From a virus: a stretch of 64,000 nucleotides of DNA. The translations under genes and the position numbers were made by a program. Shown here piece after piece: positions 61 through 57,209 of this stretch (the stretch's first letter is position 1; every line of letters begins with the position of its first letter). The stretch is from IMG/VR virus record IMGVR_UViG_3300009184_003751, positions 22,473 to 86,472 of that record; one strand, 5' to 3'. The notes under the pieces are model-generated. The model saw only the letters and a list, made by a program, of their open reading frames with translations. It made no database searches and was not told where the DNA came from.

Positions 61-248
61 CGAAAATTGTTTTTCTTTCTAGTGGAAGGAAATACGACTG
101 GCTTGGTCTTTAGAGCTTGATCTACGTAATCTCTAATCGTTTCCAAACGAAGCTGATAGCTCATACGCTCATTTTCCCTAAGATTAGGTTGTCGGTATTT
201 TTCAACCAAATCAATTATATTGACTGGTAATAGATGTTCATTCTTCAT
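57..248 (-). CDS. small hypothetical protein between gp55 and gp47
   Basis: This encodes 63 aa from the ATG at 248, chosen because GGAGAG lies six bases upstream; an upstream ATG at 278 has no such site. The protein is charged, with a predicted helix around LVEKYRQPNLRENERMSYQL and a basic tail (RKKNNFR). It overlaps the end of gp55 by 11 bases and the start of gp47 by four, so it is translationally coupled in the gp55-gp47 unit. I do not recognise a family. Its place in a recombination and late-transcription operon is the only clue to its role. Confidence 0.6.
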   Translation of the reverse strand: MKNEHLLPVNIIDLVEKYRQPNLRENERMSYQLRLETIRDYVDQALKTKPVVFPSTRKKNNFR

Positions 249-786
249 TGTTACTCTCCGAGAATTTTTCAACTCCACTTAGTTTACTACTTTTTTTAGG
301 TTTAGTCAACTTATTTTCATAGCTGCGAACAACTTCCGAAGAATACTCGTTAGCCTTAAGATGCATATTTTCCGAATCGCTCCAAAGTTCATTCATAAGA
401 AAGCTGTTTTCGAAATTCTTATGCTTGATATATGTTTGTTTCTTTTCTTTTTGAATACGTCTAATAAAAGCGTTCCAAGCGATCTGAGTAAAGTAAGCAA
501 AAGGATTATTGGTTTTATCAGGATCAAAGTTATCTACGGCTGCAATACAGTCGATAATACCGTCAGATATCATATCCTGCTTATATGTATAGCCAGAGAA
601 ATTAGGCTTCTTTGCCAAATTATTACAAATCAAAAGAATAGATTGCCCGATGTAATTCGAAACTTGTGGCTTCGGTCTATCGTTTTTCAACGCTTCATTT
701 AATTTCGTTTTATACTCGATCATTGAAGTATAAAGCGTTTTATTGTTGATATAATTTTTTGGCTTGCGTGGCTTTGATTCTGACAT
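238..786 (-). CDS. 55: late-transcription sigma factor gp55
   Basis: This 182 aa protein (T4 gp55 is 185 aa) resembles the minimal sigma-like subunit that directs host RNA polymerase to TATAAATA late promoters. Shared features include the NYxNNK start (residues 11-16), NFSGYTYKQDMISDGI and the NPFAYFTQ block followed by a basic helix (RRIQKEKKQ). These correspond to a reduced sigma region 2. The T4 C-terminal sliding-clamp motif (SLDFLYE) is not clearly present: the tail reads SGVEKFSESNNEE. A sigma70-like promoter lies just upstream and AAAGGG precedes the ATG. The many TATAAATA elements in this window are its expected targets. Confidence 0.95.
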   Translation of the reverse strand: MSESKPRKPKNYINNKTLYTSMIEYKTKLNEALKNDRPKPQVSNYIGQSILLICNNLAKKPNFSGYTYKQDMISDGIIDCIAAVDNFDPDKTNNPFAYFTQIAWNAFIRRIQKEKKQTYIKHKNFENSFLMNELWSDSENMHLKANEYSSEVVRSYENKLTKPKKSSKLSGVEKFSESNNEE

Positions 787-3303: not shown

Positions 3304-3321
3304 GAAATCCTCCATTGCTAC

Positions 3322-3329
3322 TATTTATA
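3322..3329 (-). promoter_or_regulatory. late promoter TATAAATA before gp3
   Basis: An exact T4 late -10 element on the minus strand, 19 bases before the gp3 start codon. It abuts the U-tract of the gp23 terminator, so termination of one unit and initiation of the next occupy adjacent bases. Confidence 0.75.
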
Positions 3330-15578: not shown

Positions 15579-16300
15579 TAAATTGTTCTTTCGCTAAATG
15601 GGTCAAATGCCGTGAAATCGACAAATAGATCTGACTCTGTTTGTATTTCGTCGTTATCTGCAGCCGCAATAAGATCGTTCAATGACGAACCTTCGAGAGT
15701 AAGGTAATCGCTATCTTCTGTTAGGATGTTATCGCCTTCTTCTGAAATAACAGTCCAATCGAGAATATTAGTGCTGAACTTTTTTTGAAGGACGTCTATT
15801 TCTGGTATACCAGTATTCATAGTTTCGCCAGAATACTCAAACAACTCACAAGTCATTTCCCAAGTTTGTAATGCACCTAATTGATAGAACATCTCAAACT
15901 TGTTAACATACTTAATTTGAAAACATTTATTATTAAGCGGAAAGAAAATAAGGTCACCTTCGTTTGGTCTAACCTTAGTCGTGTAGTTTCCAACGTCTTC
16001 ATTAAAACGTCTTTGAGCAACAGAAAAGATAACTTGGTCACGAATTTCAAGACCAAACTTAGACATAAAATTGCCGTCGCCAGCAAACCCATCAACAGAT
16101 TTAATGTAAATTTCAATAGGGTAAGCGTTTTCATAACTTGACTGATCGTCAGCGCCATAAACGTCATCGTAATTGTTTAACTTACGAGGAATGTAAAACA
16201 TATCTTCACCATAGATGCGAATAGCCTCTATGATTAAATTTTCAAGTAAAAGTTGTTCTTGAGAAGCTTGAAAATTATTGAAGAAAAAATTAGTTGCCAT
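15578..16300 (-). CDS. 14: gp14 neck protein
   Basis: This 240 aa protein (T4 gp14 is 256 aa) is one of the two neck proteins that close the filled head and attach the tail. The start MATNFFFNNFQASQEQLLLE and the block EAIRIYGEDMFYIPRKLNNY are characteristic, as is GDLIFFPLNNKCFQIKYVNK. Stop and start bases overlap with gp13 and gp15 on either side, so the neck genes are tightly coupled. Confidence 0.94.
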   Translation of the reverse strand: MATNFFFNNFQASQEQLLLENLIIEAIRIYGEDMFYIPRKLNNYDDVYGADDQSSYENAYPIEIYIKSVDGFAGDGNFMSKFGLEIRDQVIFSVAQRRFNEDVGNYTTKVRPNEGDLIFFPLNNKCFQIKYVNKFEMFYQLGALQTWEMTCELFEYSGETMNTGIPEIDVLQKKFSTNILDWTVISEEGDNILTEDSDYLTLEGSSLNDLIAAADNDEIQTESDLFVDFTAFDPFSERTI

Positions 16301-17040
16301 TAGCCTATCATGTCCGTAACTGGAAGTGAATAGCTATAAACCATTTCTTTTTCTAATTCTTCTCTTTCTTTTGTAGCTTCGTTATAAATTTGCTGACCAT
16401 TGAAAGTTAAGCCTCCAGGCATTTTCATACCTTCGAACTTTTTTAAGTTTGTTCCCCACTGCTGTTTAATTAAGCAAGCGGTATAACGTAGCAACCAACG
16501 ATCCGACCAAGCATCTGTATATGTTGTAGGATCAAGAACTTCATAAGCTTCTACAATTAAATAATTACCTGTTTCTAATCTTTCCCAATCCATATCTAGA
16601 TATAATTTGTTAACGTGACGATTATATCTCAATGGTTGCTGACCAACAAGCATCTGTTCAAGAAATTGAATATGGTTCATGGCCATATAGTATGGTACCA
16701 TCGAAACAGATGTAAGGGTATAAAGATCGTTCAATGCGATCTGATAGCGGATATTAAAAAGGTTATTTGTATTGAGAGCATTTCCGATAGGGAAAATATT
16801 AACAGCGCCAATAATGTTTTCTGGTAAAGTTATATATTTGTTAGTTTTATCTGTATCAGTTACTAAATGTTTATAATATATTTTCGACGAGCCGTCAAAG
16901 TGATAATCCCAAAAATAACGTAGAGCTTCGTCAATACGATCTTCTACTTGATCGTCATCAACGTTAATTTCGATAACTGGTTTACCTAAACGACGTAAGC
17001 AATTTTCTTTAAAGTCGGCTCTAGTTGTTGGCGTTGCCAT
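16300..17040 (-). CDS. 13: gp13 neck protein
   Basis: This 246 aa protein (T4 gp13 is 309 aa) works with gp14 in the neck. The N-terminal FKENCLRRLGKPVIEINVDD with QVEDRIDEALRYFWDYHFDG is highly typical, as is LLRYTACLIKQQWGTNLKKF near residue 180. It is the first gene of the neck-terminase-sheath block. AATAAATA lies 26 bases upstream. Confidence 0.94.
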   Translation of the reverse strand: MATPTTRADFKENCLRRLGKPVIEINVDDDQVEDRIDEALRYFWDYHFDGSSKIYYKHLVTDTDKTNKYITLPENIIGAVNIFPIGNALNTNNLFNIRYQIALNDLYTLTSVSMVPYYMAMNHIQFLEQMLVGQQPLRYNRHVNKLYLDMDWERLETGNYLIVEAYEVLDPTTYTDAWSDRWLLRYTACLIKQQWGTNLKKFEGMKMPGGLTFNGQQIYNEATKEREELEKEMVYSYSLPVTDMIG

Positions 17041-17065
17041 TTTATAATCCTTAAAACGTTTTTAT

Positions 17066-17073
17066 TATTTATT
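17066..17073 (-). promoter_or_regulatory. late-promoter-like AATAAATA before gp13
   Basis: One mismatch to the late element, minus strand, 26 bases before gp13 and overlapping the stop of the preceding 49 aa gene. Confidence 0.45.
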
Positions 17074-17218
17074 CAGGTATCTCGACCCAATTTTTAATGG
17101 ATTCGTCCCAATGATAAGTTTTACCGTCAGTAGGATATGGAACTGGGGGGTCCCATGCACCGTTTACGAAAATCCAGCTATCATATGGTTTTGGAACACT
17201 AGCCTGGGAAACTGCCAT
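17069..17218 (-). CDS. 49 aa conserved tryptophan-rich small protein
   Basis: An ATG at 17218, preceded by AAGGACC, opens 49 codons ending in TAA. The product contains WIFVNGAWDPPVPYPTDGKT followed by YHWDESIKNWVEI. This W-x4-5-W-x-P-P-V-P-Y-P pattern followed by a Y-x-W-x-(D/E) block recurs in small proteins and C-terminal domains of T4-like marine phages, often near fibre genes. A related end is seen in the 112 aa protein at 28255-28593 (PPYPGRGWYLDTTTYRWVKV). Function is unknown; a small beta structure in the virion is a guess. It has its own exact late promoter and lies immediately upstream of gp13. Confidence 0.75.
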   Translation of the reverse strand: MAVSQASVPKPYDSWIFVNGAWDPPVPYPTDGKTYHWDESIKNWVEIPE

Positions 17219-17229
17219 TTTATGGTCCT

Positions 17230-17237
17230 TATAAATA
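17230..17237 (+). promoter_or_regulatory. late promoter TATAAATA for the plus-strand oxygenases
   Basis: Exact late element on the plus strand, 38 bases before the ATG at 17276. Its predicted start site (near 17244) almost coincides with that of the opposing minus-strand promoter. Confidence 0.7.
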
Positions 17238-17252
17238 TATATGATTTTTTAG

Positions 17253-17260
17253 TATTTATA
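17253..17260 (-). promoter_or_regulatory. late promoter TATAAATA for the 49 aa gene and gp13 block
   Basis: Exact late element on the minus strand, 34 bases before the ATG at 17218. It faces the plus-strand element at 17230-17237. Confidence 0.7.
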
Positions 17261-17275
17261 AAACTAGGAAGCTGT

Positions 17276-17767
17276 ATGAATTTTGATTTTCTTTACAATA
17301 AACGTTTTTTACAAGCTCGAAACGCCAAAAAATCCTATTTTTTCGATTCTATTGATATACCTGTTTTATCTTGGGAAACAGTTTTAGAAGAACTCGAAAC
17401 CCATATAACTGGTGGGCTAGATTACGAGAGCAAAAACAACTTAAGGTTTATTTTGTTCGAAATGCGTAATAAAACCGTTTCGCAGTTCGTAAAACAATAC
17501 TCAAAACTAGACCCGAAATTACACTGTGGTGCTCATTGTTATGTAAACCTGATGTCTAAGTCGGGGGAAAACGGAAGGCATAAAGACCCAGCCGATGTTT
17601 TATTTTGGCAAGTTGTTGGTTCTACACAATGGTCTATAGAAGACGATAATATAAAAACATATATACTAGAGCCAGGTAAAGCTGTATATGTTCCAGCTGG
17701 AATGTATCATAGCGTTACTTCATTATCCCCTCGTGCTGGCATTTCTTTTGGATTAGATTATGAGTAA
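17276..17767 (+). CDS. JmjC/cupin-like iron oxygenase
   Basis: This encodes 163 aa from the ATG at 17276, chosen for AGGAAG just upstream; the open frame extends further 5' but lacks a plausible start site. H102-x-D104 (RHKDPAD), the strand LFWQVVGSTQWSI and the distal YVPAGMYHSV (H145) make the facial triad and scaffold of JmjC-type (cupin_8) 2-oxoglutarate/Fe(II) hydroxylases. The F-x-Q-x2-G-x3-W pattern resembles protein hydroxylases of that fold. It is first of three plus-strand oxygenase genes and overlaps the next by eight bases. Enzyme class is inferred from motifs; the substrate is unknown. Confidence 0.7.
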   Translation: MNFDFLYNKRFLQARNAKKSYFFDSIDIPVLSWETVLEELETHITGGLDYESKNNLRFILFEMRNKTVSQFVKQYSKLDPKLHCGAHCYVNLMSKSGENGRHKDPADVLFWQVVGSTQWSIEDDNIKTYILEPGKAVYVPAGMYHSVTSLSPRAGISFGLDYE

Positions 17768-18275
17768 TATGTTTCATAAAATATTTACGCTCGAAAACCA
17801 CAACGAGCTAAAACCTAAAATCATAAAATCAATTAAAGAGTTTTCAGCGAAATCTTTAACCAACTCGACAGATTCTATAACTAGAACTGATTGGAATATA
17901 CCTGAAAACGTTCCAAGACCGTATTTCGATTATATCAAACCTTTTATCGAAAACGAGTATATGGATTATGTAAGATACCTTGGTGGAAAAAGCGCAGAGA
18001 TTCATAACTTATGGTTTCAGCAATATTATAAAACAGACACCCATACAACGCACTGCCATCCAGGTTCTCATTTCAGTAACATCTATTATGTAGAACTTCC
18101 TCATAAGTTTCAACGAACGGAGTTTTATAATCCGTTTGAAAAAACATTTTTTCAATTTAATGCCGAAGAGGGAGATATATTAACTTTCCCTGCTTACTAC
18201 GCTCACAGGTCGCCAGTAAATAATAGCGACGATAGGAAAACTGTTGTTGTTTTCAATAGTTCGATAGAGGTTTAA
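17760..18275 (+). CDS. putative 2OG-Fe(II) oxygenase
   Basis: This 171 aa protein has THCHPGSHFSNIYYVELP (H98-x-H100), then GDILTFPAYYAHRSPVN (H149) and a basic residue before the last strand (R159 in RKTVVVFN). This is the layout of the putative 2OG-Fe(II) oxygenases common in T4-like cyanophages, in which H-x-H replaces the classical H-x-D. It starts inside the end of the first oxygenase gene and ends one base before the third, so the three are one translationally coupled late unit. Whether it binds iron needs testing, since an acidic ligand is not evident. Confidence 0.7.
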   Translation: MSNMFHKIFTLENHNELKPKIIKSIKEFSAKSLTNSTDSITRTDWNIPENVPRPYFDYIKPFIENEYMDYVRYLGGKSAEIHNLWFQQYYKTDTHTTHCHPGSHFSNIYYVELPHKFQRTEFYNPFEKTFFQFNAEEGDILTFPAYYAHRSPVNNSDDRKTVVVFNSSIEV

Positions 18276-18276
18276 T

Positions 18277-18909
18277 ATGAACGTTGTTGGTCTATTTCCT
18301 ACGCCATTTTATGTTGAAAATATAGAACAAAAATTAGACATGAAAGAGATCGATCTATTAGTCGAGCTTTCAACTCAAAAAGAAAACCTTATAGAAAATA
18401 TAGGAAACGGTAATTCTTTTTATAAAGATACTAAAATATTGAAATCGTTACCAAACCTTAACTTAGAACTAACAAAAAAAGTTAATGAGTTTCTCTCAAA
18501 CATTTTTGGCGAACATAATTCTAAATTAACAATAACTCAATCTTGGTTGAATATAAACCCTACAGATACGTATCATCATATGCATTCCCATAAGAATAGC
18601 ATAGTAAGTGGAGTTTTATATATCGAATGCGATGAAAATAGCGGAGCTTTCAAATTATATAAACCAGAAGCTTTGTGTCGAAACGTAGGAGGGATTATAA
18701 ACGAACATAATCCATTTACATATGATTTTGTAAAGTTCGTCCCTAATAAATTTGATCTTTATTTATTTCCAAGTAACTTGAAGCATTCGGTTGATACTAA
18801 CAAATCAACTACAAGTAGACTTTCGCTAGCGTTTAATACGTTTTATATCGGAGAAGTTGATTCAGTATACGATTCTTTATCGCAGCTTACTATTACTGAA
18901 TGTTCATAA
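18277..18909 (+). CDS. putative 2OG-Fe(II) oxygenase of the TIGR02466 type
   Basis: This encodes 210 aa starting MNVVGLFPTPFYVENI, the typical opening of the TIGR02466 family seen in many cyanophages. The metal-binding segment is YHHMHSHKNSIVSGVLYI (H101, H103, H105), with distal H170 in FPSNLKHSV and R181 in SRLSLAFN, which would bind 2-oxoglutarate. Proteins of this family are predicted oxygenases; no substrate is known. Its last 17 bases overlap tail-to-tail with the minus-strand oxygenase gene, so the two transcription units collide here without an intervening terminator. Confidence 0.75.
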   Translation: MNVVGLFPTPFYVENIEQKLDMKEIDLLVELSTQKENLIENIGNGNSFYKDTKILKSLPNLNLELTKKVNEFLSNIFGEHNSKLTITQSWLNINPTDTYHHMHSHKNSIVSGVLYIECDENSGAFKLYKPEALCRNVGGIINEHNPFTYDFVKFVPNKFDLYLFPSNLKHSVDTNKSTTSRLSLAFNTFYIGEVDSVYDSLSQLTITECS

Positions 18910-19492
18910 ACTGACTTAAACAGTAACGACCGTTTCCTTTGTAACCGCAGTATTCGGGATCCATTTTAACTTCCGTAACTTCGTGTTTTACATGAGAAGG
19001 AAACATAATCATCATATTGTTTTCTATTTCAACAGTTTCGTTATATTTCGTAAAAATAAGGTTACCACCAGTGAACTTTTTAGGCTCTTTAAACACCCAT
19101 TGAAGCGCCGTTATAGAAGCTACATCTCTGTGTGATTTGTAATAACCACTATTTTCATAATAACTTAATAACGTAGAATCATTATTAATCATAAAAATGT
19201 TTTCATACATTTCATGTAAGTTGCTATAGAGTTTAAAAATATCTGCAGAAAATGTTTTTCTATTTATTTTTAAAATATTAGAAAAAGATCTATCGCAATA
19301 AACTTCGTCAATAAAAACACCATGATTGTGTTTCATATCAATTTTCTGTTGACCAGTTTTTTGAGGAGGTTGTAGCTTATTTTGGTAAGTTAAGAAATCT
19401 AACTCTTGCCATATTAATTTAAGCTCTTCTTCTGTATAATAATTTTTAATTTTCAAATATGGAAATGATTTTTTATCGTTACATACGTCCAT
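18893..19492 (-). CDS. 2OG-Fe(II) oxygenase, prolyl-4-hydroxylase-like
   Basis: This 199 aa protein has a full double-stranded beta-helix signature: H121-x-D123 (YYKSHRDVASITAL), the GG turn before strand V (FTGGNLIF, 142-143), distal H170 (MFPSHVKHEV) and R189 (NGRYCLSQF). This is the P4H-type pattern. Possible targets are proline, lysine or asparagine side chains of virion proteins or a host protein; nothing in the sequence decides. The start overlaps the stop of the next gene upstream by one base (TAATG). It is the terminal gene of the fibre-oxygenase minus-strand run. Confidence 0.75.
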   Translation of the reverse strand: MDVCNDKKSFPYLKIKNYYTEEELKLIWQELDFLTYQNKLQPPQKTGQQKIDMKHNHGVFIDEVYCDRSFSNILKINRKTFSADIFKLYSNLHEMYENIFMINNDSTLLSYYENSGYYKSHRDVASITALQWVFKEPKKFTGGNLIFTKYNETVEIENNMMIMFPSHVKHEVTEVKMDPEYCGYKGNGRYCLSQFMNIQ

Positions 19493-20013
19493 TAAATAAT
19501 TTCCTTCAACTTAAACGCAATCGTAACTCTAAGTTCAGGGCAGTATCTAGTAGGTTCTAAACCAACATGATTCAATGTACTATTAAACAATATACCTGTA
19601 TTTTTAATAGGAATGATTGTATCTATTTGGCCATTTGTTTGTACAATTTGAGTTCCACCTCCCCAATTTAAATTCCAAATCGGGTTAGCATAATAAACAA
19701 ACGTATAATATAGTTCTGGAGCATAATCTGTATGTACGTCTGTATGTAGATTTCCAGGCTGGCCATATGTTTGGCCATTTGCATAAACTCTTTTTATTTC
19801 AAATTTTTTATCAGATATTGTTTCGATAATTTTTAAAAAGTCGTTTTTAAAAAAAAGATCGTTTTCTAAATCCATATACCAAAATTTATAATCGGATGGG
19901 TTTTTGCTATAACCGATATATTTCCACTGACCGTTTAAAATTGTTTTTTCTAAAACGTAATTATATTGTTCGTCATTTAATACATTATAAAAGTATTTCA
20001 CATTAAACTCCAT
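19492..20013 (-). CDS. 2OG-Fe(II) oxygenase, prolyl-4-hydroxylase-like
   Basis: This 173 aa protein has GNLHTDVHTDYAPELYYTFV, giving two possible H-x-D pairs (H90/D92 or H94/D96), the glycine turn LNWGGGTQIV (118-120), distal H149 (NSTLNHVG) and R162 (ELRVTIAF). This is a complete P4H-like iron and 2-oxoglutarate site. It starts three bases after the stop of the glycine-rich adhesin gene, so it is likely co-transcribed with fibre genes. That placement makes a fibre protein a plausible substrate, by inference only. Confidence 0.78.
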   Translation of the reverse strand: MEFNVKYFYNVLNDEQYNYVLEKTILNGQWKYIGYSKNPSDYKFWYMDLENDLFFKNDFLKIIETISDKKFEIKRVYANGQTYGQPGNLHTDVHTDYAPELYYTFVYYANPIWNLNWGGGTQIVQTNGQIDTIIPIKNTGILFNSTLNHVGLEPTRYCPELRVTIAFKLKEII

Positions 20014-55847: not shown

Positions 55848-56708
55848 TTATCCTAAACCACCAGTAGAGTTTCTTATGGCATTTCCGATAATTGGTCCAG
55901 CCGCCACAAATGCAGCTGCTATATTTCTACCAGCTTGACCTGTGGTGATAATTTCTCCAGTATAGTCAGTTTGATCCCAAAGCTGAATTTCTTTAAGTTG
56001 TAATGTTAAATTTATAACTGTTGGACGATTTGTTCCTCTAAAAAACGAAGGATTACCAGCCCCTGTAAAATCAACTTGAACTGAAATGATAGCACAATTT
56101 TTAAATTGCATTCCCATTTCATCTGGCAACATTCGTATCCTTACAATATCAGGATACTTTAAATATAAACCGCCCATATTTGTAGGTAAAGAAGATTTTC
56201 TACATGCGTTGATTATATTATTAAGAGTTTCTGATTCTTGAGGCGTATGTGGTGCTAATGTCCAAGAAAACGTAAACTCTTTAAAGTTTGGCTGTTTGAA
56301 CTGCATAAATTGGAATGGGTTTAATGCTGCGCCAATTATAGGACCACCGATAGAAATAGCGGTCGATATTTCGGCTGCTCTTGGTACGTTCCCAACTAAA
56401 GAAGCTGCTTGTTGCGTCGCACTAATTTCATTCCAAGATAAGGTTGTTGCATCGTTTATCTTTTTCGGTAATGGTAATCTTATACCATTTCCAGAAGGAA
56501 GTAGAGCATTTCCTCTTGGGCCACGATTTCCGCCTAAACCCCCAGCTCCTTGAATGCCAGTTGTATAATTGGCAAATTCAATTTCCGTAAAAAACCCTCT
56601 ATCTCTTGCTACTAAGTCATTAGGAAAACTTAGAGTGTCAAAAGTTTTTCTCGGAGGAGTTGGGAATTTAGCATTATTTCTATATGCTGTTATTGGTATT
56701 AAAGGCAT
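55848..56708 (-). CDS. 48: gp48 baseplate tail tube cap protein
   Basis: This 286 aa protein (T4 gp48 is 364 aa) forms the tube-initiating ring on the hub. Characteristic pieces are NNAKFPTPPRKTFDTLSFPN, NPFQFMQFKQPNFKEFTFSW with TLAPHTPQESETLNNIINAC, and VQVDFTGAGNPSFFRGTNRP with TVINLTLQLKEIQLWDQTDY. The N-terminal part has a Gly/Pro-rich loop (GGLGGNRGPRGN). It is the first gene of the baseplate operon on the minus strand and has an exact late promoter. Confidence 0.92.
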   Translation of the reverse strand: MPLIPITAYRNNAKFPTPPRKTFDTLSFPNDLVARDRGFFTEIEFANYTTGIQGAGGLGGNRGPRGNALLPSGNGIRLPLPKKINDATTLSWNEISATQQAASLVGNVPRAAEISTAISIGGPIIGAALNPFQFMQFKQPNFKEFTFSWTLAPHTPQESETLNNIINACRKSSLPTNMGGLYLKYPDIVRIRMLPDEMGMQFKNCAIISVQVDFTGAGNPSFFRGTNRPTVINLTLQLKEIQLWDQTDYTGEIITTGQAGRNIAAAFVAAGPIIGNAIRNSTGGLG

Positions 56709-56747
56709 TGAAGTCCCATAATTCGTGGCTAAATATCTTATAATTTC

Positions 56748-56755
56748 TATTTATA
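56748..56755 (-). promoter_or_regulatory. late promoter TATAAATA for the baseplate operon (gp48 onward)
   Basis: Exact element on the minus strand, 40 bases before gp48. It lies only eight bases before the plus-strand gp4 start, so the divergent units share a 54-base gap. A good promoter for the plus strand was not found in this gap. Confidence 0.7.
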
Positions 56756-56762
56756 TGAAAAA

Positions 56763-57209
56763 ATGGCAAAATATAATAAAGGCAAGTTCAAACCCAAAAA
56801 CCCTGAAAAATACAAGGGCAACCCGACAGAGATCTATTATAGATCTGGTTGGGAATTCAAACTCATGATGTATTTAGATCATACGAAAGAAATCGTAAGT
56901 TGGGGGTCGGAAGAAATCATAATACTATATCGTTCGCCTATAGACGGTAAGATACATCGTTATTTCCCCGATTTTATTGTTACAAAAATAAATAAAGAAG
57001 GCAAAAAAGAAACTGCCTTAATTGAAGTAAAACCAGCTTCTCAAACCAAGCCACCTGCTAGGCAAGAAAAGCCGACTAAACGATATATTACGGAAGTAAC
57101 GACTTGGGGCATTAACGAAGCCAAATGGAAAGCAGCTTCTGAATATTGTAAAGACAGAGGCTGGGCGTTTCATATTTTTACCGAAAAAGAACTTGGGATC
57201 AAATACTAA
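56763..57209 (+). CDS. 4: gp4 head completion protein
   Basis: This 148 aa protein (T4 gp4 is 150 aa) completes the filled head before tail joining and has an endonuclease-like fold. The start AKYNKGKFKPKNPEKYKGNP with YYRSGWEFKLMMYLD, then YFPDFIVTKINKEGKKETAL and IEVKPASQT, gives a D-x(n)-E-x-K nuclease signature (PDF...LIEVKP). The first ribosome-binding site is poor. Its stop shares a base with the next start (TAATG). It begins the short plus-strand block. Confidence 0.92.
   Translation: MAKYNKGKFKPKNPEKYKGNPTEIYYRSGWEFKLMMYLDHTKEIVSWGSEEIIILYRSPIDGKIHRYFPDFIVTKINKEGKKETALIEVKPASQTKPPARQEKPTKRYITEVTTWGINEAKWKAASEYCKDRGWAFHIFTEKELGIKY

Follow-up and report, generated by a model that had tools for sequence, protein, structure and literature searches.

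Two late promoter boxes face each other at compact divergent junctions of T4-like phages

The window analysed here, a stretch of 64,000 nt of viral DNA, carries at 17.2 kb two late promoter boxes that point towards each other between divergent genes. Upstream of gp4 the same geometry is found again in T4-like phages, T4 itself among them, far more often than chance would give. We consider it quite probable that such a pair represents two gp55 promoters which fit into a single short divergent junction and take turns on any one DNA copy. Judged by sequence comparison, the facing arrangement looks like a shared compact design of T4-like phages and not a curiosity of a single genome. The individual elements are ordinary T4-type late promoters.

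The facing pair at 17.2 kb

The features that concern us at and around the junction are the following.
17230-17237, plus strand: late promoter box, exact match to TATAAATA; predicted start 17243
17238-17252: A+T-rich 15-bp segment between the boxes, holding both predicted starts; putative melting region for either promoter
17253-17260, minus strand: late promoter box, exact match to TATAAATA; predicted start 17247
17276-17767, plus strand: JmjC/cupin-like gene, 163 aa (PF08007, E 8e-8); first gene of the predicted plus transcript
17760-18275, plus strand: 2OG-Fe(II) oxygenase (PF13759, E 2e-12)
18277-18909, plus strand: 2OG-Fe(II) oxygenase (PF13759, E 4e-20)
17069-17218, minus strand: 49-aa ORF with an AAGGA ribosome-binding-type site upstream; first gene of the predicted minus transcript
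17066-17073, minus strand: second late-type box, AATAAATA, 25 nt ahead of the gp13 ATG at 17040
16300-17040, minus strand: gp13-like neck protein (head-tail adaptor; phrog_211, E 7e-43)
238-786, minus strand: gp55-like late sigma factor (phrog_234, E 1.4e-55), the expected reader of the late boxes

The first-pass annotation had described exact copies of TATAAATA at 17230-17237 (plus) and 17253-17260 (minus), facing each other across 15 bp, and both the coordinates and the orientation were confirmed. It had put the transcription starts at 17244 and 17246; the placement of the T4 late box at -13 to -6 (available text of PMC1524935) gives 17243 on the plus strand and 17247 on the minus strand, so that the two predictions agree to within 1 nt. 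The predicted starts are thus 4 bp apart (a difference of -4 bp) and the two RNAs would overlap by 5 nt. The leader measures 38 nt from the plus box to the ATG at 17276 and 34 nt from the minus box to the ATG at 17218, and the divergent gap between the start codons is 57 bp. A search for RNA structure in the two leaders gave nothing (z of -0.65 and +0.29).

Over the whole window the octamer shows no enrichment (ten copies found versus 8.9 expected from shuffles, both strands together), and the argument therefore rests on placement. One of the ten copies is on the plus strand and nine are on the minus strand; the complete 86,472-base record has one and 12, respectively, leaving 17230-17237 as its sole plus copy. 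Six of the nine minus copies in the window lie 22-44 nt from the nearest called start, the others being at 6, 91 and 134 nt. The start codon called at 3315 has the copy at 3322-3329 just 6 nt ahead of it; as a later ATG in the same frame has a GGAGG before it, the call at 3315 is probably wrong. When the 57-bp junction was shuffled 20,000 times with dinucleotides preserved, the plus octamer arose in 4.0%, the minus octamer in 6.3% and a facing pair in ten (0.05%), figures which are a guide and not a test since the junction was chosen post hoc.

On the plus side, the start of the JmjC/cupin-like gene at 17276 was picked from its ribosome-binding-type site; the longest ORF starts at 17111. The earlier description of this side as oxygenase genes was right in substance, the set being the JmjC/cupin-like gene and two 2OG-Fe(II) oxygenases. 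Five consecutive genes of cupin or 2OG-Fe(II) oxygenase type lie beside the neck genes in 17276-20013, three on the plus and two on the minus strand, the last of which is an endonuclease V according to PHROGs and an oxygenase according to Pfam. On the minus side the order is the 49-aa ORF, which matches the C-terminal part of phrog_7759 (unknown function; E 1.7e-7), the gp13-like neck protein and then an Hc2-type head closure protein.

Besides the gp55-like gene, the left part of the record holds genes for a gp45-like clamp and a gp44/gp62-like loader; no gp33 was identified among the proteins scanned. The exact boxes, the short leaders and the gp55-like and gp45-like genes are all those of a T4-type late promoter. 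The proposal that both elements are late promoters is supported by their placement, by these genes and by the recurrence of the architecture in relatives.

On the minus strand at 17224-17237, the reversed late box continues directly into a ribosome-binding site (TATTTATAAGGA), so that one gene's promoter is fused to the other's ribosome-binding site. A reversed box also abuts a ribosome-binding site at the T4 and KPV15 gp4 junctions (L450 and L462).

The 17.2-kb junction in relatives

Conservation in relatives had been put forward as a check on the pair. The facing architecture was indeed found there, upstream of gp4; the 17.2-kb instance was not. A search of viral contigs gave no relative of the cupin-like gene on the plus strand, and none of 80 gp13 loci has a facing pair within 600 nt upstream of gp13. 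As it was unseen in the relatives searched, the 17.2-kb pair looks private to the window's lineage, within the searches made.

Once near-duplicates and one short locus had been removed, 71 of the 80 gp13 loci remained; a divergent start within 120 nt was called in seven of these and in none of the other 64. All seven carry the forward box, and four of the seven also carry the reversed box. In a wider pool, 240 loci from relatives and the window, 69 divergent junctions were called. The pool still contains duplicate contigs, and the gene caller missed the window's own junction (the 49-aa ORF fell under the cut-off and the plus start was wrong). Exact boxes were found on both sides of ten junctions, on one side of 18 and on neither side of 41; for a reversed-motif control the counts were one, ten and 58. 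Nine of the ten two-sided junctions are back to back or palindromic (TATTTATAAATA), and in the remaining one (L012) a repeat permits both readings. The facing match in L012 was rejected as a conserved pair, as it belongs to a TATTTATATAAATA repeat some 2.5 kb away from the gp13 gene of that locus.

The palindrome TATTTATAAATA lies between gp13 and a divergent gene at L011:2964-2975, L316:6114-6125 and L317:7219-7230. It amounts to two late boxes with a common TATA core, the predicted starts being 23 bp apart. L256 also carries the 12-mer, which was not seen there at any divergent junction that was called. Upstream of gp13 in L063, L066, L067, L072, L074, L075 and L078, late boxes stand back to back with 5 bp between them; the divergent gene opposite gp13 in these loci encodes 182-183 aa, and the divergent side in L066 is CATAAATA. 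Since the TATA core is self-complementary, overlapping palindromes, and with them chance back-to-back pairs, arise easily: a control octamer with a self-complementary core gave 32 back-to-back pairs, and the other eight controls gave 0-5.

Facing pairs upstream of gp4

The window has a second divergent junction with facing boxes.
55848-56708, minus strand: gp48-like baseplate tail tube cap (phrog_230, E 3e-26)
56728-56735, plus strand: variant late box GCTAAATA for gp4; predicted start 56741
56748-56755, minus strand: late box TATAAATA for gp48, facing the box at 56728; predicted start 56742
56763-57209, plus strand: gp4-like head completion protein (phrog_218, E 1e-56)

A scan of viral contigs gave at least 83 exact facing pairs in at least 80 loci; among the facing pairs listed, five lie between divergent genes at promoter distance, and four of these five are gp4/gp48 junctions. 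Profile matches identify the minus neighbour as gp48 in the window and in L094, L098, L104 and L144 only. Exact facing pairs are found twice in 50 T4-like records, both at a divergent junction whose plus gene has a gp4-like beginning as judged by eye; exact non-overlapping back-to-back pairs occur once in the same records. In several relatives NCTAAATA occupies the place of GCTAAATA upstream of gp4. The available text of PMC1524935 gives CTAAATA as the late consensus of phage Aeh1.

With gp4 as the query, 77 of 80 loci were usable (three were too short upstream); together with the window these gave 78 junctions, or 57 non-redundant junctions at 90% identity (IMG/VR), in which L364 represents the window's own. 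Facing NATAAATA boxes are present upstream of gp4 in 39 of the 57 (shuffle mean 0.07, maximum 2). With the motif N[AC]TAAATA the count is 50 of 57 (shuffle mean 0.165, maximum 2); this motif was adopted after the junctions had been inspected, although CTAAATA had already been published for Aeh1. In 48 of the 50 pairs no ATG completes the minus box, and the difference between the predicted starts has a median of 0 and a range of -11 to +10 bp. The facing pair is missing at seven of the 57 junctions. In L422 an A+T-rich repeat upstream of gp4 holds a single plus box next to three minus boxes that overlap one another.

Isolate phages

Regions around gp4 were taken from 24 isolates, chosen from hit lists and not independent, and the 18 with a gene diverging from gp4 were scored. 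RHph_I1_9, AhFM11, F336, Cassandra and K397 have no gene diverging from gp4 itself, and AG-345-D19 is unannotated. The diverging gene is annotated as gp48, gp53, a tail-tube protein or is unnamed. A facing pair is present at 13 of the 18 junctions (shuffle mean 0.01 of 18): T4 (53/4; record MZ375356, a mutant clone of 151,790 bases), KPV15, UPWr_E1, Lazarus, Syn9, S-CAM9, P-SSM4, S-RIM8, S-SSM6b, Syn1, Melnitz, phiM12 and RHph_I1_18. The five without one are K566, where the boxes are back to back, SeSz-1 and PMBT1, which have the minus box only, and ACP17 and Vibrio YC, which have neither.

Nine of the 13 pairs are clear of the gp4 start codon. In the other four (Syn9, P-SSM4, S-RIM8 and S-SSM6b) the minus box borrows its last letters from that codon, which weakens these cases. 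For S-SSM6b and Syn1 the gp4 start was moved upstream of the annotation, and the minus start of Syn1 is a guess; in P-SSM4 the annotated minus start is 129 bp distant.

Facing ATAAATA pairs across 15 isolate records and the window's own number 11, in seven of the 16 records, and back-to-back pairs number two, in two of the 16. The 11 comprise six gp4 junctions, the 17.2-kb pair and four others. Away from gp4, facing late-box pairs stand at the following places.
T4, inh/segE (L483): divergent junction
KPV15, inh/helicase (L486): divergent junction
UPWr_E1 (L485): between two unnamed divergent genes
T4, beside the I-TevI gene: no divergent partner in the stretch shown

A pattern search also showed back-to-back late-type boxes at 98413-98433 of the T4 record MZ375356 and at 114715-114736 of the Lazarus record MN782535.

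Leader controls and spacing

Leaders with no divergent neighbour, defined as those with no minus start with a ribosome-binding-type site called within 120 nt, provide a control. Upstream of gp13 the forward box is present in 42 of 64 such leaders and the reversed box in none; upstream of gp23 the counts are 43 and one of 76. These counts make it unlikely that the reversed box is an artefact of leaders in general.

They also bear on a different reading of the 17.2-kb junction, in which the minus box alone acts as a promoter, the plus octamer, part of the A+T-rich leader ahead of the ribosome-binding site of the 49-aa ORF, matches TATAAATA by chance and the plus genes are read from elsewhere. 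The plus octamer adjoins AAGGACC on the minus strand, it arises in 4% of the shuffles, the pair was not found in relatives, and a weak sigma-70-type match (9/12) lies on the plus strand at 17041-17068, about 200 nt upstream of the ATG at 17276; an equally weak match (9/12) on the minus strand, at 17262-17234, overlaps the junction itself. However, leaders that lack a divergent neighbour hardly ever carry a reversed box, and the plus octamer, the sole plus-strand copy in 86 kb, is as far from a divergent gene as a promoter would be. Upstream of gp4 facing pairs are recurrent, and the sigma-70-type scan gave zero plus-strand matches from 17069 to 17275. We consider a lone minus promoter unlikely and continue with two promoters.

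Leaders were measured in 46 of the 50 gp4 pairs, four being dropped for ambiguous start codons. The means are 30 and 34 nt, partly shaped by the leader-limiting rules by which start codons were chosen, and the gap between the start codons averages 52 bp (35-64 bp). In five pairs that are back to back or palindromic, the leaders measure 24-35 nt and the gaps 64-86 bp; K566, a sixth back-to-back case, has a gap of 68 bp and a plus leader of 17 nt. With like leaders but shorter gaps in the facing pairs, the topology tends to follow intergenic length. Among the facing pairs, the two leaders are longer where the gap is wider (rho of 0.65 and 0.68, for lengths that are arithmetically linked), and leader length is thus not rigid.

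A special constraint on the spacing of the boxes was considered and rejected. A permutation test for it seemed highly significant, but its null is unsound because the segment lengths are arithmetically linked; the standard deviation of the box-to-box distance (4.4) is like those of the flanking segments (4.8 and 4.9) and there is no clear compensation.

The symmetric 8-bp arms could alternatively be an imperfect inverted repeat that serves as the operator of a dimeric DNA-binding protein, with no promoters involved. The gap between the arms ranges from 1 to 26 bp among relatives, unlike a dimer site, and each arm is at late-promoter distance from a start codon, so that we regard an operator as highly improbable.

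Proposed use of the facing promoters

We infer use of the boxes as late promoters in vivo, their exact start bases, the melting and the mutual exclusion from the arrangement described above. Each octamer would be a T4-type late promoter that is read by phage gp55 with the host RNA polymerase and activated by the gp45 clamp, which in T4 acts on a late promoter from its upstream end; an A+T-rich segment downstream of the box is also described for T4 (both in the available text of PMC2988020). Face-to-face packing would arise because the late genes diverge from only 57 bp and each box needs a leader of about 20-45 nt. The A+T-rich 15 bp between the boxes would be the melting region common to both promoters. 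With predicted starts 4 bp apart the open complexes would claim the same melted segment, and for this reason transcription would proceed in one direction at a time per DNA copy; judging from this overlap, two polymerases could presumably not open both 17.2-kb promoters on one copy. Each departing polymerase would pass over the opposite box within about 20 nt. Summed over many genome copies, the yields of the two transcripts would be proportional to the respective promoter strengths.

The first-pass annotation had gone further and suggested that mutual exclusion sets a fixed ratio of head-gene to oxygenase transcription. This went unsupported: the first minus gene is the 49-aa ORF, and there is a separate late-type box for gp13 (AATAAATA, 17066-17073). 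The two footprints should overlap, and competition between opposed polymerases is reported at activated Escherichia coli bidirectional promoters, both points in favour of a tie between the output of the head genes and that of the oxygenases. However, the partners vary by junction (oxygenases here, gp4 with gp48 or gp53, and inh with segE in T4) and the spacing is without special constraint. Of five E. coli bidirectional promoters, only those with one direction strongly activated showed competition and those of low activity did not compete, in the available text of PMC12825309, from which we also take the report of competition; exclusion would then matter only with one strong direction, and no fixed ratio follows. 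We give a ratio device little credence.

A further idea is that the orientation of gp45 decides whether the plus or the minus promoter is activated, with the direction of replication or the nicked strand making the choice. According to the available text of PMC2988020, the interrupted strand determines which of two orientations gp45 takes on DNA, and the activating primer-template junction must lie downstream of its promoter; genes for clamp and loader are present in the record. The same would nevertheless apply to any two opposed late promoters, facing or not, and such a switch seems to us improbable. In its broadest form, in which facing pairs are an ancient T4-like device and the clamp orientation picks the divergent late operon that fires on each DNA copy, we treat it as a long shot; if it were true, the shared segment of 30-40 bp would be a replication-direction switch.

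For two alternately used gp55 promoters, the recurrent geometry would mean that, in one of the best-studied groups of phages, two late promoters have a common melting region. Polymerase competition and the clamp-orientation rule become directly testable at natural junctions, and the prediction of late promoters at divergent junctions should treat both strands together.

Comparison with known systems

The class described here consists of opposed, facing N[AC]TAAATA boxes in a short divergent gap with starts within about 15 bp of each other. The 17.2-kb pair fits this description; in the relatives searched, a facing pair at the corresponding junction was seen upstream of gp4 and not at 17.2 kb. 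No discussion of facing late-promoter pairs was found in the open-licence literature, a scope outside which most subscription papers fall, nor was any 5' end mapping for these junctions. Promoter tables for T4 may list both promoters at 53/4.

The closest system is that of the T4 late promoters (TATAAATA, read by gp55 with gp33 and gp45), with the same octamer, an A+T-rich downstream segment, similar leader lengths and gp55-like and gp45-like genes. These promoters are discussed singly in the texts available to us, whereas the facing pairs at 53/4 and inh/segE are read here from MZ375356. The late consensus sequences of cyanophages (NATAAATA; PMC2984593) and of Aeh1 (CTAAATA; PMC1524935) match the variant boxes upstream of gp4, and the available portions of both papers describe them as single motifs with pairing unmentioned. 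In the sections at hand, the Melnitz paper counts 15 late promoters with no remark on pairing, and the rV5 paper reports gene-level divergent promoters and a weak late-like motif, which are not facing pairs.

The bacterial bidirectional promoters of Warman, Grainger and colleagues likewise use one short sequence to make two divergent RNAs with exclusive orientations of the polymerase. Their starts are 7-25 bp apart, most commonly 18 (available text of PMC10268837), and flank or lie within a common -10 element (available text of PMC12825309). The late boxes, in contrast, are separate and face each other, and the predicted starts differ by -15 to +10 bp; the values of -4 bp at 17.2 kb and a median of 0 upstream of gp4 fall outside the bacterial spacing. 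The palindromic TATTTATAAATA pairs (L011, L316 and L317; difference 23) are nearer to the bacterial class. By analogy, the facing pair would resemble the bacterial bidirectional promoters in function and differ from them in geometry.
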